Assembly: GCA_016184105.1 (NCBI GenBank)
Contig: JACPDI010000021.1
Location: forward strand, 1 to 64,000
DNA length: 64,000 nucleotides
Direction of reading: 5' to 3'
DNA from: Acidobacteriota bacterium
GTDB lineage: Bacteria; Acidobacteriota; Vicinamibacteria; Vicinamibacterales; 2-12-FULL-66-21
Shown: positions 1 through 63,357 of the stretch, piece by piece
How positions within the stretch are numbered: position 1 is the stretch's first letter
How the letters are laid out: the number at the start of each line of letters is the position of its first letter
Translations under genes and position numbers: made by a program
The notes under the pieces: model-generated
Database searches by the model: none
What the model was told of the DNA's origin: nothing
Seen by the model: the letters and a program-made list of their open reading frames with translations, nothing else

Positions 1-328
<328 letters not shown>

Positions 329-890: not shown

Positions 891-2171
891 CTAGTGACTC
901 TTCCGCACCCGGATCAGGCGGCGGTCGCGCTGCCCCTTTCGCAGCACGAAGATCTCTCCTTCGATCGCCTGATCCAGGCCGACTCGCTCTTTCTCGCTCG
1001 AGACGCGCGCGTCGTTCACGTAAAACCCGCCTCCCTTGACGAGCCGGACTGCGGCGCTCGTGGACGGCTCGAGGCCGGAAAGCGTGATCAGCCGGGTGAC
1101 CGGGAGCCCGTCGGTGCCGAAGTCGGCGGCGTCAACCGCGGTTGACGGCACGTCTTCGAAGACGGTGAGGATGTCGTCCTTGGAGGCGTTCCGCACGTCC
1201 CCCTTGAAGAGCAGCGCCGATGCCGCCTCGGCGCGCTGCCGCTGTTCGGGGCCGTGCGCGAGGTCGGTCACGTGCGCCGCGAGCGCCCGCTGCGCGTCAC
1301 GGCGCTCCGGGAACGCCTCGGACGCGCGCGCGAGCTCCTCGATCGCCGTCTCATCGAGAAACGTGAAGAACTTCAGGTATCGGACGGCGTCGCGATCGTC
1401 GGTGTTCAGCCAGAACTGGTAGAAGCGGAACGGCGAGGTGCGCGCGGCATCCAGCCACACGGTGCCCACCTCGGTCTTGCCGAACTTCACGCCGGATGCG
1501 GTCGTCACCAGCGGCAGCACGATGCCGTGCGCCTTTGCGCCGCGCAGCTTGCGAATCAGATCGATGCCGGCCGTGATGTTCCCCCACTGATCGCTGCCGC
1601 CCATCTGCAGCGTGCAGCCGAAGCGATCGTGCAGCACGACGAAGTCGTACGCCTGCGTGAGCAGGTAGCTGAACTCGGTGTAGGAGATCCCCTCCTCGGA
1701 CTCCAGCCGCCGCTTCACCGATTCCTTCTGCAGCAGGTAATTCACCGTGAAGTGCTTGCCGATGTCGCGCAGGAACGTCATGAGCGGGATCGTCACCAGC
1801 CAGTCCGCGTTGTTCACGATCCGCGCGGCGTTCGGGGCGCGGTCGAAATCCAGGAAGCGTTCGAGCTGCCGGCGGATCCCCACGACGTTCGCCTCCACCT
1901 GTTCGGTGGTCAGGAGCTGCCGCTCCTGCGTCTTTCCGCTCGGATCGCCGATGAGGCCGGTCCCGCCGCCGACGATGGCGATGGGCGCGTGGCCGGCGCG
2001 TTGAAAACGCGCGAGCGCCATGACTGGGAGGAGCGAGCCGACGTGCAGGCTGTCGGCGGTCGGATCGAAGCCGATGTAACCCGTAACCTGTCCGGAGCGG
2101 AGGGCGTCGCGCGCGCCGTCGGTTGCGTCGTACACCATCTCGCGCCATTCGAACTCGCGGAAGAGATCCAT
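891..2171 (-). CDS. tyrS: Tyrosine--tRNA ligase
   Basis: Class I aminoacyl-tRNA synthetase that charges tRNA-Tyr in the cytoplasm. The 426-residue product has the HIGH-type signature HVGS at residues 43-46, the KMSKS-type loop KFGKT near 229-233, the tyrosine-site segment MGGSDQWGN near 190, and a C-terminal S4 RNA-binding domain (about 360-426). Length matches bacterial TyrS (about 420). I chose the ATG at 2171 because the family starts at the MDLF segment; a longer frame to 2264 adds unrelated low-complexity residues and would overlap the divergent gene. It is divergent from a methyltransferase gene across 28 bases and directly upstream of the rrn promoters. Confidence 0.97.
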   Translation of the reverse strand: MDLFREFEWREMVYDATDGARDALRSGQVTGYIGFDPTADSLHVGSLLPVMALARFQRAGHAPIAIVGGGTGLIGDPSGKTQERQLLTTEQVEANVVGIRRQLERFLDFDRAPNAARIVNNADWLVTIPLMTFLRDIGKHFTVNYLLQKESVKRRLESEEGISYTEFSYLLTQAYDFVVLHDRFGCTLQMGGSDQWGNITAGIDLIRKLRGAKAHGIVLPLVTTASGVKFGKTEVGTVWLDAARTSPFRFYQFWLNTDDRDAVRYLKFFTFLDETAIEELARASEAFPERRDAQRALAAHVTDLAHGPEQRQRAEAASALLFKGDVRNASKDDILTVFEDVPSTAVDAADFGTDGLPVTRLITLSGLEPSTSAAVRLVKGGGFYVNDARVSSEKERVGLDQAIEGEIFVLRKGQRDRRLIRVRKSH

Positions 2172-2199
2172 GCTGCGAATCAAGTTACCATAGCGGCGC
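2172..2199. promoter_or_regulatory. 28-bp divergent gap with overlapping -10 elements
   Basis: The near-palindromic core TACCATA at 2186-2192 reads TACCAT on the plus strand and TATGGT on the minus strand, so one patch could serve as -10 for both directions. It lies 8 bases before the plus-strand ATG and 15 before the tyrS ATG. No good -35 is visible. The call rests on position and on similar arrangements elsewhere in this window. Confidence 0.4.
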
Positions 2200-2982
2200 A
2201 TGGCCTCGCGTCTGCCCCACGCGGTGACTCGCGCGCTGGGCCTGGCGGCGTTCGTCGGGCTCAACCCACGCCAGACGTGGCTGCTCCGGCGCCTGCCCCG
2301 GTTCTGGCGCGAGGCGCGCCAGTACGCGCGCGCGGCCGGAAGAGGCCCTTTTCCGCTGGACCCGTGGGATCTGGAGCCAATCCTGCACGACTACTTCGCT
2401 GAAGCCGGCAGCGCGAGCGGGCACTACTTCCACCAGGATTTGTGGGCGGCACGCCGGATCTGCGCGAGGCGGCCGGCCAGCCACGTGGACGTCGGATCCC
2501 GCGTCGACGGCTTCGTCGCGCACGTGCTCGCGTTCATGCCCGTGACCGTGGTCGACATCAGGCCCCTGCACAGCGATGTCGCCGGGCTCCGGTTCGTGCA
2601 GGGCGACGCGTGCCGGCTCGACGCCTTCGCGGACGACAGCGTGGAATCCCTCTCGAGCCTCCACGCCGTCGAGCATATCGGGCTCGGTCGCTACGGGGAC
2701 GCGATCGATCCGGACGGGTGCTTCAAGGCACTGCGCGAGTTCGCGCGCGTGCTGCGCCCCGGCGGGCGCCTGTACCTCGGCGCGCCCGTCGGCCGAGAGC
2801 GGGTCAGGTTTAACAGCGAGCGGATCTTCGACCCGCGCACGCTCATCGACGCCCTCGGAAATCTGCGGTTGCTCGACCTCCAGGCGGTGGACGACGGTGG
2901 CGCCTTGATCGAACACCCGAACCTCGCCACGCTCGCACGGGCGTCGTATTCGTGCGGGCTTTTCGAGTTCACGAAGCACTGA
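2200..2982 (+). CDS. DUF268-like SAM-dependent methyltransferase
   Basis: A 260-residue protein. The central part resembles a class I methyltransferase fold: a glycine-containing motif I (HVDVGSRVDGF, about 94-104), an acidic strand end (VVDIRPL, near 117), a motif with D-x-V-E-S-L then HAVEHIGLGRYGD, and a FARVLRPGGRLY strand near 185 typical of methyltransferase motif post-II. This pattern with YFHQDLW upstream matches the DUF268 family, whose substrate is unknown. The gene is divergent from tyrS and its stop overlaps the next start (TGATG), so the two are probably co-translated. Methyltransferase fold is well supported; the target is not inferable. Confidence 0.75.
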   Translation: MASRLPHAVTRALGLAAFVGLNPRQTWLLRRLPRFWREARQYARAAGRGPFPLDPWDLEPILHDYFAEAGSASGHYFHQDLWAARRICARRPASHVDVGSRVDGFVAHVLAFMPVTVVDIRPLHSDVAGLRFVQGDACRLDAFADDSVESLSSLHAVEHIGLGRYGDAIDPDGCFKALREFARVLRPGGRLYLGAPVGRERVRFNSERIFDPRTLIDALGNLRLLDLQAVDDGGALIEHPNLATLARASYSCGLFEFTKH

Positions 2983-56330: not shown

Positions 56331-57644
56331 CTAATCGTAGTATTCGAGCCCGAGGTGCGTGATCAGCTCTTCCCCCTTCATGTAGCGCAGGGTGTTCTTC
56401 AGCTTCATGAGCTGGATGAAGAGATCGTGCTCGGGGTACAGCTCGGGCGCGTGCACCGGGCTCTTGAAGTAGAACGACAGCCACTCCTGGATGCCGCTCA
56501 TGCCGGCGCGCTTCGCGAGATCGAGGAAGAGCGCGACGTCGAGCACGATCGGCGCCGCGAGAATGGAATCGCGGCACAGGAAGTTGATCTTCAGCTGCAT
56601 CGGGTACCCGAGCCAGCCGAAGATATCGATGTTGTCCCAGCCTTCCTTGTTGTCGCCGCGCGGCGGATAGTAATTGATCCGGACGAGGTGGCAGATGTCC
56701 TTGTACAGGTCCGGATAGAGCTTCGGCTGGAGGATGTAGTCGAGGACGGACTTCTTACTCTCTTCCTTCGTCTTGAACGACTCGGGATCGTCCAGCACTT
56801 CGCCGTCGCGGTTGCCGAGGATGTTCGTCGAGTACCAGCCGTTGACGCCGATCAGGCGCGCCTTGAGTCCGGGCGCGATGATGGTCTTGATCAGCGTCTG
56901 GCCGGTCTTGAGGTCCTTGCCCGCCAGGGGCGAGCCGGTCTGCGCGGCCAGTTCGGTGAGGGCTGGAACATCGCCGCTCAGGTTCGGCGCCGCGTTCGCG
57001 TACGGGATGCCTTCCCTGATGGCGGCGTACGCGTAAATCATGCTCGAGGGAATCGCGTCGTCGCTCGCCTCGAGCCCCTTCTCGAATGCGGCCAGCGAGG
57101 CGTGGACCGGCGCCTCCCTCATGAAGACCTCGGTGCTGCCGCACCACACCATGACGAGGCGATCGAGCTTGTGCTCCGCCTTGAAATTCCGGATGTCGGC
57201 GCGGACCTGCTCCGCCAGGTCGCGCTTGTTCTTTCCCTTCTTGACGTTCGGGCCATCGAGCCGCTTGACGTAGCGGCGATCGAACACCGCGGGCCAGGGC
57301 TTGATCCTCTCGAGGTCGGGGCGAATCTGCTCGAGCAGTCCCGCTTCGATCACGCCGGCGGTCTTCGCCGCCTCGTAGCAGTTCTCCTCGAAGATGTCCC
57401 ACGCGCCGAACACCAGGTCGTTCAGGTCGGCGAGCGGCACGAACTCCCGGATGGCCGGCGAGCGGCCTTCGGTGCGCTTCCCGAGACGGATGGTGCCGAG
57501 TTCAGTAAGAGAGCCGATCGGCTGTGCGAGGCCGCGGCGAACCGCGTGCACGCCGGCGATGAAGGTGGTGCTGACCGCGCCAAGGCCCACGAGCATGATG
57601 CCGAGTTTGCCCGACGCGGGCGCGATGTTTACTGGTGCTTTCAC
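56331..57644 (-). CDS. Inositol-3-phosphate synthase
   Basis: Makes L-myo-inositol 1-phosphate from glucose 6-phosphate using NAD. 437 residues: the Rossmann start LGIMLVGLGAVSTTFIAGV near 13-31, VVWCGSTE-like VMVWCGSTEVF near 160, GNDLKTGQT-like GKDLKTGQTLIK near 240-252, NGWYSTNILGNRDG near 268-281 and KINFLCRDSILAAPIVLD near 360-377. The second half is complete. Start is a GTG at 57644. It would support inositol phospholipids or osmolytes. It is divergent from a methyltransferase gene across 26 bases. Confidence 0.93.
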   Translation of the reverse strand: MKAPVNIAPASGKLGIMLVGLGAVSTTFIAGVHAVRRGLAQPIGSLTELGTIRLGKRTEGRSPAIREFVPLADLNDLVFGAWDIFEENCYEAAKTAGVIEAGLLEQIRPDLERIKPWPAVFDRRYVKRLDGPNVKKGKNKRDLAEQVRADIRNFKAEHKLDRLVMVWCGSTEVFMREAPVHASLAAFEKGLEASDDAIPSSMIYAYAAIREGIPYANAAPNLSGDVPALTELAAQTGSPLAGKDLKTGQTLIKTIIAPGLKARLIGVNGWYSTNILGNRDGEVLDDPESFKTKEESKKSVLDYILQPKLYPDLYKDICHLVRINYYPPRGDNKEGWDNIDIFGWLGYPMQLKINFLCRDSILAAPIVLDVALFLDLAKRAGMSGIQEWLSFYFKSPVHAPELYPEHDLFIQLMKLKNTLRYMKGEELITHLGLEYYD

Positions 57645-57670
57645 ATGCCCAACTATATCATCAGGGGTTC
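57645..57670. promoter_or_regulatory. 26-bp divergent gap with overlapping -10 elements
   Basis: The AT-rich patch at 57652-57661 gives TATAGT on the minus strand (seven bases before the GTG at 57644) and TATATC or TATCAT on the plus strand (nine bases before ATG 57671). The two -10s overlap, and both transcripts would be leaderless or nearly so. No strong -35 was found for either. Confidence 0.45.
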
Positions 57671-58216
57671 ATGCGCTTTCTTCGCAGGGGCGGCGATCCG
57701 CACGCGTTCGCGCTCGCCATGATCGGCCTCAAGATGGGCGACCGGCTCCTTCAGCTCGGCGCCGGCGACGGCGCGCTGCTGGCCGCCCTCGGGGGAAAAG
57801 TGGGTCTGACGGGCCGCGCCTGCGGCGTGGACGAATCCGACGAGGGGGTCGCCCGCGCCAAGCTCGCGGCGGACCGCGAGGGGGTGCTGCTGGAGCTGCA
57901 GCGCGCGTCGTACGAGGCGCTGCCCTTCGACGATGGGGCGTTCGACGTCGCGATCGTGAACGCGGTGCTGCCCGACGTGGCGCCCGAGGCACGCGTGACG
58001 ATCGTCGCGCAGGTGGCGCGCCTGCTCCGCTCCGGCGGGCGCTGCATCGTCGTGGATGCCGTGCCCCGCGGCGGCCTCGGCGCGCTGCTCGGCGGGCCGA
58101 AGCCGGATCCCGCCTATCGGCCGGCCGACCTGCCCCGGGCCGCCGGCTTCAAGGCGGTGCGCTCGCTGGCCGAGCGCGACGGGGTGCGGTACGTGGAGGG
58201 GATCATCAGCCGGTAG
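57671..58216 (+). CDS. SAM-dependent methyltransferase, class I
   Basis: 181 residues. Motif I LLQLGAGDGALLAALGG near 27-43, acidic end GVDESDEGVARAK near 55, motif II FDDGAFDVAIVNAVLPDV near 86-103, and VARLLRSGGRCIVVDAV near 118-134, as in UbiE/COQ5-like or Trm-like small methyltransferases. The N-terminus (FLRRGGDPHAFALAMIGLKMGDRLLQ) is basic and could touch membrane or nucleic acid. The substrate is undetermined. Start ATG 57671 chosen over an upstream ATG at 57635 because the latter lies inside the divergent gene. Confidence 0.8.
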   Translation: MRFLRRGGDPHAFALAMIGLKMGDRLLQLGAGDGALLAALGGKVGLTGRACGVDESDEGVARAKLAADREGVLLELQRASYEALPFDDGAFDVAIVNAVLPDVAPEARVTIVAQVARLLRSGGRCIVVDAVPRGGLGALLGGPKPDPAYRPADLPRAAGFKAVRSLAERDGVRYVEGIISR

Positions 58217-59119: not shown

Positions 59120-59851
59120 ATGCGCATCGCAGCCACCCTCGGCCTGAGCGCGCTTGGAAGCGTCGGCGGCGTGCTCGTCGCCTCGCTGTTTCTGCTCGTC
59201 GGAGAAAAGAACCGCTCGCGGGTGCTGCCCTCGCTCATCAGCTACGCGGTGGGGACGCTGCTTGGCGCGGCGCTGCTCGGGCTTCTTCCCGAGGCGCTCG
59301 AGAGCCGCACGCCGACTGCCGTCTTCGCAAGCCTGCTCGTCGGCATCTTCACCTTTTTCATTCTCGAGAAGCTGGTGTTGTGGCGTCACTGCCACGACAC
59401 GGCGGACTGCCAGGTGCACAGGAGCACGGCGACGCTCGTCGTCCTTGGCGACGCGTTCCACGCGCTGGTGGACGGCGCGGTGATCGCCGCGGCCGTCGTC
59501 GTATCGCTTCCGCTCGGCATCACGACGGCGCTGGCGATCGCCGCGCACGAGGTGCCGCAGCAGGTGGGAGACGTCGCGATCCTGCTCGCGGCCGGCTATT
59601 CGCGCCGGCGGGCGCTCGCGCTGAACCTGGTGGCGGGACTGGCGAGCGTGGCCGGCGCCGGGATGATGCTGACGTTCGCCGGGGCGACGCCGTCGCTTCT
59701 CGGCTACGTGCTCGGGTTCGCGGCGGGCAACTTCCTCTACGTGGCGATGGCCGATCTCATCCCGCACCTGCACCGCGGAATGGAAGAGACGAGCGCCGTG
59801 CGGCAGATCGTCATGATTGCGGCAGGGATTGTGACGATCGTGGCGCTATAG
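59120..59851 (+). CDS. ZIP-family divalent metal transporter
   Basis: 243 residues with about seven or eight membrane helices. The family metal sites are in helix IV (FHALVDGAVIAAA near 115-127, His and Asp) and helix V (AAHEVPQQVGDVAILL near 142-157, the HExPxxxGD signature). A His/Cys-rich loop (RHCHDTADCQVHRS near 90-103) may bind metal in the cytoplasm. Likely imports zinc or iron. ATG at 59120 lies six bases after a TATCAT element with no Shine-Dalgarno; an ATG at 59105 would start on the -10. Its 3' end overlaps the next, opposite gene by 41 bases. Confidence 0.88.
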   Translation: MRIAATLGLSALGSVGGVLVASLFLLVGEKNRSRVLPSLISYAVGTLLGAALLGLLPEALESRTPTAVFASLLVGIFTFFILEKLVLWRHCHDTADCQVHRSTATLVVLGDAFHALVDGAVIAAAVVVSLPLGITTALAIAAHEVPQQVGDVAILLAAGYSRRRALALNLVAGLASVAGAGMMLTFAGATPSLLGYVLGFAAGNFLYVAMADLIPHLHRGMEETSAVRQIVMIAAGIVTIVAL

Positions 59852-60632
59852 ATCTTCCGCGGCCGCGGCGCACCACCCACCAGATCGCCATCGCGAGCGC
59901 GAACATCGCGGCGCCAAACGCCCCCGCGAACAACCAGAGCGTCCGGTTCAGGATCGACTCGCTGTCCATGCGGACTTCCATCTCCACCGGGACGCCCGCC
60001 AGCCGATCGGAGAGCCGCTGCTCCCAGCGCACGATGTTGCCGCGCTCCACTTCGCCCGTCTGCCTGGTCTCGATGTCGCGCACGTTGTGGTGGAAGATGC
60101 GGCTCGGCAGGTGGAGCTTGAAGGCGACCAGCTCCGATCCATCCCAGTTCGCCTCCGGCACGCCGGCACGTTTTCCGCCGCCGACGCGCTGCCGGAAGAC
60201 CGATCCGCCCTCCCGCGTCGCCAGGTCATAGCGCGCCCGGTCGAACAGCGGCGCCTCGGGCAGCCGCCGGACGTCGGGAACGTCGAGGCGGATCTGGATG
60301 AAGCGCCGGCCGCGGCGGCGCCAGGTGCGGCTCACGCGCGTGACGTCGTACACCGGCGATTCAATCTGCGCCCGCACATCGTCGCGGTCGATCCGCGTGC
60401 GGCTGTTGACCGGCAGCGCCATCCCGTGCAGCGCCACCAGCGCGGGAATGGATGCATTGATCGTGACGACGGCGGAACCGTCGAGGCTGAGCGTGACGTC
60501 TTCCTCGTATTCGTATTGCCGGCCGAAGCGCCGCCCGGCGCCGCCGGCGCAGTCGATGGTGGACGCGGCGACGAGGAGGACGAGGCAGGCGATGACGAGA
60601 GCGATCGGTGCGGCGCGGCGCGTCCTGCGCAT
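59811..60632 (-). CDS. Exported, C-terminally membrane-anchored protein of unknown function
   Basis: 273 residues. A signal-like segment (about 6-25) is followed by an extracytoplasmic region of beta character with many Arg residues (YEYEEDVTLSLDGSAVVTINASIPALVALHG, FIQIRLDVPDVRRLPEAPLF, WDGSELVAFKLHLPSRIFHHNVRDIE), then a single membrane helix near 235-258 (LWLFAGAFGAAMFALAMAIWWVV) with a basic tail. No known domain recognised. The Cys after the signal region (TIDCAGG) does not form a good lipobox. ATG at 60632; longer frames cover the divergent gap. The stop lies inside the ZIP gene. Confidence 0.7.
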   Translation of the reverse strand: MRRTRRAAPIALVIACLVLLVAASTIDCAGGAGRRFGRQYEYEEDVTLSLDGSAVVTINASIPALVALHGMALPVNSRTRIDRDDVRAQIESPVYDVTRVSRTWRRRGRRFIQIRLDVPDVRRLPEAPLFDRARYDLATREGGSVFRQRVGGGKRAGVPEANWDGSELVAFKLHLPSRIFHHNVRDIETRQTGEVERGNIVRWEQRLSDRLAGVPVEMEVRMDSESILNRTLWLFAGAFGAAMFALAMAIWWVVRRGRGRSIAPRSSQSLPQS

Positions 60633-60663
60633 CAGTCGAATAATATAAGAATGGACTGTTCCG
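60633..60663. promoter_or_regulatory. 31-bp divergent gap with overlapping -10 elements before polA
   Basis: An AT-only patch TAATATAA at 60641-60648 offers TAATAT or TATAAG on the plus strand (GTG of polA at 60664) and TATATT on the minus strand (ATG at 60632, nine bases away). Both directions would start within about ten bases of the start codon. -35 sequences are poor. Confidence 0.45.

Positions 60664-63357
<2,694 letters not shown>

Follow-up and report, generated by a model that had tools for sequence, protein, structure and literature searches.

The question raised by this locus is how two genes that face away from each other can both be transcribed from an intergenic gap of 26–31 bp. 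Three such gaps occur in the window, by which we mean the whole stretch of 64,000 nucleotides that was analysed (GC content 68%, from a genome of 4.24 Mb). In these gaps, the back-to-back genes appear to share one two-way promoter, with the predicted messages starting at or near the start codons. Relatives of ino1, one of the genes concerned (79–82% identity), come from Acidobacteria, Vicinamibacteria and Vicinamibacterales. The window's genome accordingly belongs to the Acidobacteriota and probably to a soil-type member of the Vicinamibacterales, the order referred to below.

The three gaps and their -10 boxes

The minimal -10 was defined as TANNNT, and the spacer is the number of nucleotides between the box and the start codon. 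The genes, gaps and boxes are as follows.

891..2171 (-): tyrS-like tyrosyl-tRNA synthetase, ATG at 2171, translation MDLFREFEW...
2172..2199: gap 1 (tyrS/mtA), 28 bp
2186-2191 (+): gap 1 box TACCAT, spacer 8
2187-2182 (-): gap 1 box TAACTT on the tyrS side, spacer 10; or TATGGT, 2192-2187, spacer 15
2200..2982 (+): mtA, methyltransferase-domain protein (DUF268 / Methyltransf_11)
56331..57644 (-): ino1, myo-inositol-1-phosphate synthase, GTG at 57644 (Pfam PF07994, PF01658)
57645..57670: gap 2 (ino1/mtB), 26 bp
57652..57661: shared decamer of gap 2, ACTATATCAT on the plus strand, ATGATATAGT on the minus strand
57657-57652 (-): gap 2 box TATAGT for ino1, spacer 7, preceded by TGA (extended -10)
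57656-57661 (+): gap 2 box TATCAT for mtB, spacer 9
57671..58216 (+): mtB, class I methyltransferase (Methyltransf_11/25), a small protein, ATG at 57671
59811..60632 (-): sec, protein with a hydrophobic N-terminus and no Pfam match, ATG at 60632
60633..60663: gap 3 (sec/polA), 31 bp, its own copy being ATAATATAAG
60645-60640 (-): gap 3 box TATTAT on the sec side, spacer 7; also TATATT, spacer 9
60641-60646 (+): gap 3 box TAATAT, the sole TANNNT facing polA, spacer 17; alternatively TATAAG, which lacks the -7T
60664..63357 (+): polA, DNA polymerase I, GTG at 60664

Divergent gene pairs flank all three gaps, and the coordinates and lengths (28, 26 and 31 bp) given in the earlier note are exact. 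The note read the AT patch of every gap as a -10 on both strands. This is fully borne out in gap 2, where each strand has a clear -10 and the two hexamers overlap in a common TA at 57656-57657, with a predicted distance of 23 bp between the transcription start sites (TSSs). In gap 1, mirrored boxes are present but weak, and the tyrS side is weak in the window genome. In gap 3, only the minus-strand box is convincing; the polA side is degraded in the window genome, and relatives carry both boxes. Judged from the sequence, an overlapping bidirectional promoter would best account for gap 2 and is plausible for gap 1. The same grading applies to the suggestion that both transcripts would have few or no leader bases, which is weak for the polA side of gap 3. 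The gaps had also been called too short for two separate promoters. This holds for separate -10s; a -35, however, might in principle be placed within the flanking gene. No conserved -35 is found inside the genes neighbouring the gap or in the ino1 alignment, and none was found genome-wide; the consensus scan yielded a single, weak -35/-10 pair, for sec (9/12). As no -35 is conserved, recognition by the -10 only or by an extended -10 is likelier. For ino1 only, TGA-TATAGT together with the lack of a conserved -35 corresponds to an extended -10 promoter.

The start residue of tyrS is the same in the orthologues of relatives, and a further in-frame ATG lies at 2201. The tyrS/mtA pair is kept in two relatives only; there, the gap is 52–54 bp long and holds two separate boxes, TATAGT facing tyrS (7 nt away) and TATGAT facing mtA. 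The 5' part of a 16S rRNA gene (window 1-328, minus strand; Rfam RF00177) adjoins tyrS at the contig edge.

At the sec/polA gap, relatives carry ATGATATA[GC]T. An in-frame sec start is located 7–9 nt from TATCAT in 25/25 loci where both could be placed, and polA is 6–55 nt away. These distances make sec the near-leaderless partner, with polA usually having a leader in relatives, a correction to the earlier note's few or no leader bases on this side. The sec gene is a conserved neighbour of polA (divergent in most relatives across the order), and its N-terminus is variable. Beyond the window, there is a further divergent gap of 21 bp (C21:64189-64209, CGTACCCTATAATCGAATCCG), with TATAAT 8 nt from the plus-strand gene, which by eye is tRNA nucleotidyltransferase/poly(A)-polymerase-like.

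The ino1/mtB gap across the order

The ino1 upstream region was compared in 81 genomes from 13 families. In all 81, ATGATATAGT stands before ino1, exactly (57/81) or as a close variant, and the GTG start of ino1 is conserved across the order. The TA and the final T of the core are kept, and the spacer is 6–9 nt (8 nt in 64/81), the position of TANNNT that marks leaderless (TA-led) genes. In most of the ino1 genes that the search retrieved from outside the order, the leader is Shine-Dalgarno-like, and the decamer and an mtB neighbour are absent. The divergent partner of ino1 is mtB in most of the order. In 32 genomes from eight families, its ATG is located 6–14 nt from the mirrored TATCAT; for seven of these 32, the start was set manually to an in-frame ATG that lies closer to the core.

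The alternative that survives best is that the patch serves ino1 (or sec, or mtA) only as a one-way promoter, the mirrored -10 being incidental and the partner being transcribed from elsewhere. The close mtB starts in eight families argue against it, and so does position 1 of the decamer. This base belongs neither to the ino1 hexamer nor to the TGn before it; it is the -7T of the mtB -10. It is A in 32/32 genomes with a near mtB ATG versus 30/49 of the others (Fisher, 2e-5; within-family permutation, 5e-5). The core positions that belong to ino1 only show no significant difference between the near-mtB (32) and other (49) genomes. These counts suggest an extra constraint on the decamer at the -7T of the partner. 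In family f6, where the gaps are longer, five genomes carry a separate TAAACT or TAAGCT at 7–9 nt from the mtB start; the position 1 A is lost in four of the five. Once the partner gene has moved away, a base needed only by the partner would be free to change. In favour of a one-way promoter, the position 1 A persists in many genomes with a far mtB. Families f1, f9, f11 and f12 keep it in this situation, and there the site may give a leadered mtB mRNA, or the A may bring ino1 a mild benefit. The tree-corrected result is also borderline: among 14 independent pairs, 4.7 go in the same direction and 0 in the opposite one (median p 0.06).

Short divergent gaps across the genome

The genome-wide counts cover 1.17 Mb of the window's genome. 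Gene starts were predicted by a purpose-made codon-pair-score caller that uses neither promoter nor Shine-Dalgarno signals. In the sequences before 272 divergent genes, TANNNT is sharply concentrated at spacers of 6, 7 and 8 (19, 16 and 10 occurrences versus a background of 1.6 per position), with a Shine-Dalgarno peak beside it; the genome therefore mixes leaderless-type and led genes. TG precedes 15 of 60 leaderless-type boxes genome-wide. Among the 16 divergent gaps of 15–45 bp, 15 have a box 5–12 nt from at least one start codon (4.3 expected), and eight have one at this distance from both start codons (0.68 expected). The two-sided boxes are 12 times commoner than in dinucleotide shuffles (p<=0.0005). 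As the shuffle test of the register is not conditioned on the presence of a -10, a stricter comparison was made with 79 other leaderless-type boxes of the same genome, all non-divergent or in long gaps. Mirror symmetry is present in 12/15 short divergent gaps and in 30/79 of the comparison boxes (p=0.004). The 30 illustrate what a one-way promoter can produce, since TA is self-complementary and one extra A gives many -10s a mirrored TANNNT, but the two-sided boxes and the more frequent symmetry of the short gaps go beyond it. Taking both sides together, we consider a one-way promoter unlikely. Predicted TSS distances of 18, 21 and 23 are over-represented genome-wide, and convergent gaps of 12–120 bp show no mirrored register that occurs twice or more.

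These counts suggest that overlapping bidirectional promoters are a systematic feature of the window's genome. The feature varies within the order, as judged from two relatives. One (G050, family f9) lacks the leaderless peak and, over 400 kb, any divergent gap of 15–45 bp, yet keeps the ino1 decamer; in the other (G091, family f6), the leaderless peak is weaker than in the window's genome.

Two further gaps illustrate the geometry. The gap between fabZ and a GAF-PP2C gene (C12:110549-110579) holds a shared AGTATAAT, with a predicted TSS distance of 21; about 18 of 30 relatives retain this sequence, with varying gap lengths. The extreme case is a gap of 17 bp between mazG and a gene for an MBL-fold hydrolase (C9:10746-10762, CCGGGTATGCTACACCT). 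Both boxes are exactly 6 nt from their start codons, which are 18 bp apart. Many relatives conserve the mazG box, TAGCAT, but their MBL gene usually lies at a greater distance (at least 300 bp in most). The tight pair therefore seems to be of recent origin, the MBL gene apparently having adopted the reverse side of the mazG -10.

Our preferred reading is that the short gaps are bidirectional sigma-70-type promoters with overlapping -10s and with TSSs at or within a few nucleotides of the start codons; we would put its probability at about 0.72. A more specific version, for which the odds seem even, is that of predicted double-leaderless promoters, in which two divergent genes share a single symmetric -10 and each start codon is itself a TSS. 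The gap would then shrink towards the minimum allowed by the polymerase (17 bp at mazG/MBL, where the 18 bp between the start codons equal the commonest TSS distance of E. coli), and at ino1/mtB the unit would have been kept throughout the order.

Two other interpretations of the decamer were weighed and rejected on the following evidence. The decamer could be an operator instead of a core promoter, bound by a transcription factor that ino1 and polA have in common, and the same near-palindromic decamer does occur at two unlinked functions. This is very improbable: the decamer keeps a fixed, -10-like distance from the start codon, its invariant positions are exactly TA and the final T in a gap without any other -10, and other short gaps carry different decamers (TATGCTA, AGTATAAT). 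That it is a conserved minimal upstream ORF, ATGATATAG being readable as Met-Ile-stop, has next to no chance of being right, as the first codon is GTG, CTG or TTG in far genomes, several have ATGATATATT without a stop and the polA relatives have ATGATATACT. In the window's own genome, ATGATATAGT is rare outside the window and is thus a specific conserved site, not a general promoter form.

Proposed mechanism and comparison with known systems

Under the bidirectional promoter model, the -10 hexamers on opposite strands would overlap, a common TA giving a predicted TSS distance of 23 bp and TANNNTA one of 18 bp. At ino1, the extended -10 (TGA-TATAGT) appears to stand in for a -35. The near-symmetric -10 would allow RNA polymerase to load in either direction, with initiation predicted at or within a few nucleotides of each start codon and translation presumably leaderless. 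The polymerase footprint would be located mostly inside both coding regions. As RNA polymerase can take only one orientation at a time, the two genes would compete for, and be tied to, one site. A leaderless mRNA needs nothing between TSS and start codon, which would leave both genes free to approach the shared -10; the start codons would have moved up to it because the lineage apparently makes many leaderless mRNAs.

Comparative genomics provides an independent sign of selection for both strands of one -10. The short gaps suggest a lower limit on the distance between divergent genes that is set by promoter geometry, and they would link leaderless translation to genome compaction in Acidobacteriota. 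No TSS map for Acidobacteriota was found in the literature searched. The ino1/mtB gap is a test object of 26 bp suited to a reporter.

Warman and colleagues reportedly described bidirectional promoters with a pseudo-symmetric -10 in Escherichia coli and Salmonella in 2021. Such promoters have been found by TSS mapping, mainly in these two organisms (Middlemiss et al. 2023, PMC10268837; Warman et al. 2026, PMC12825309), and the earlier note was right that overlapping bidirectional promoters have been reported in bacteria. At the near-symmetric -10s of E. coli, polymerase loads either way, and the TSSs are mostly 18 bp apart, with distances of 10 and 23 bp also seen (PMC12825309; PMC10268837). 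Among the TSS distances predicted here are the preferred ones of 18 (C9 gap) and 23 (gap 2), and the gaps resemble the E. coli and Salmonella promoters in their opposite-strand overlapping -10s and in the bias to divergent gaps. They differ in that the E. coli and Salmonella reports do not discuss leaderless transcripts (PMC12825309, PMC10268837), whereas here the start codons are at or within a few nucleotides of the predicted TSSs, and the intergenic region is little more than the promoter core.

Leaderless genes have been predicted in all three of three Acidobacteria genomes, with a mean of 13.3% (Zheng et al. 2011, PMC3160421). The genes studied here share with the TA-led leaderless genes of high-GC bacteria a TANNNT about 12 bp before the start codon (PMC3160421). 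That work is a survey of single genes, and a search of its text returned no relevant passage on divergent genes or bidirectional promoters. Searches of the mostly open-access literature returned no paper on point in which bacterial leaderless genes are connected with promoters that are bidirectional or that are divergent and overlap. The ino1 site resembles extended -10 (TGn) promoters in its TGA-TATAGT and the lack of a conserved -35; unlike in those promoters, its bases double as part of the -10 of the partner. The mechanism would thus be a known one, combining bidirectional -10 promoters with leaderless genes, and what appears new is the predicted doubly leaderless arrangement around a shared core, kept across the order at ino1/mtB.
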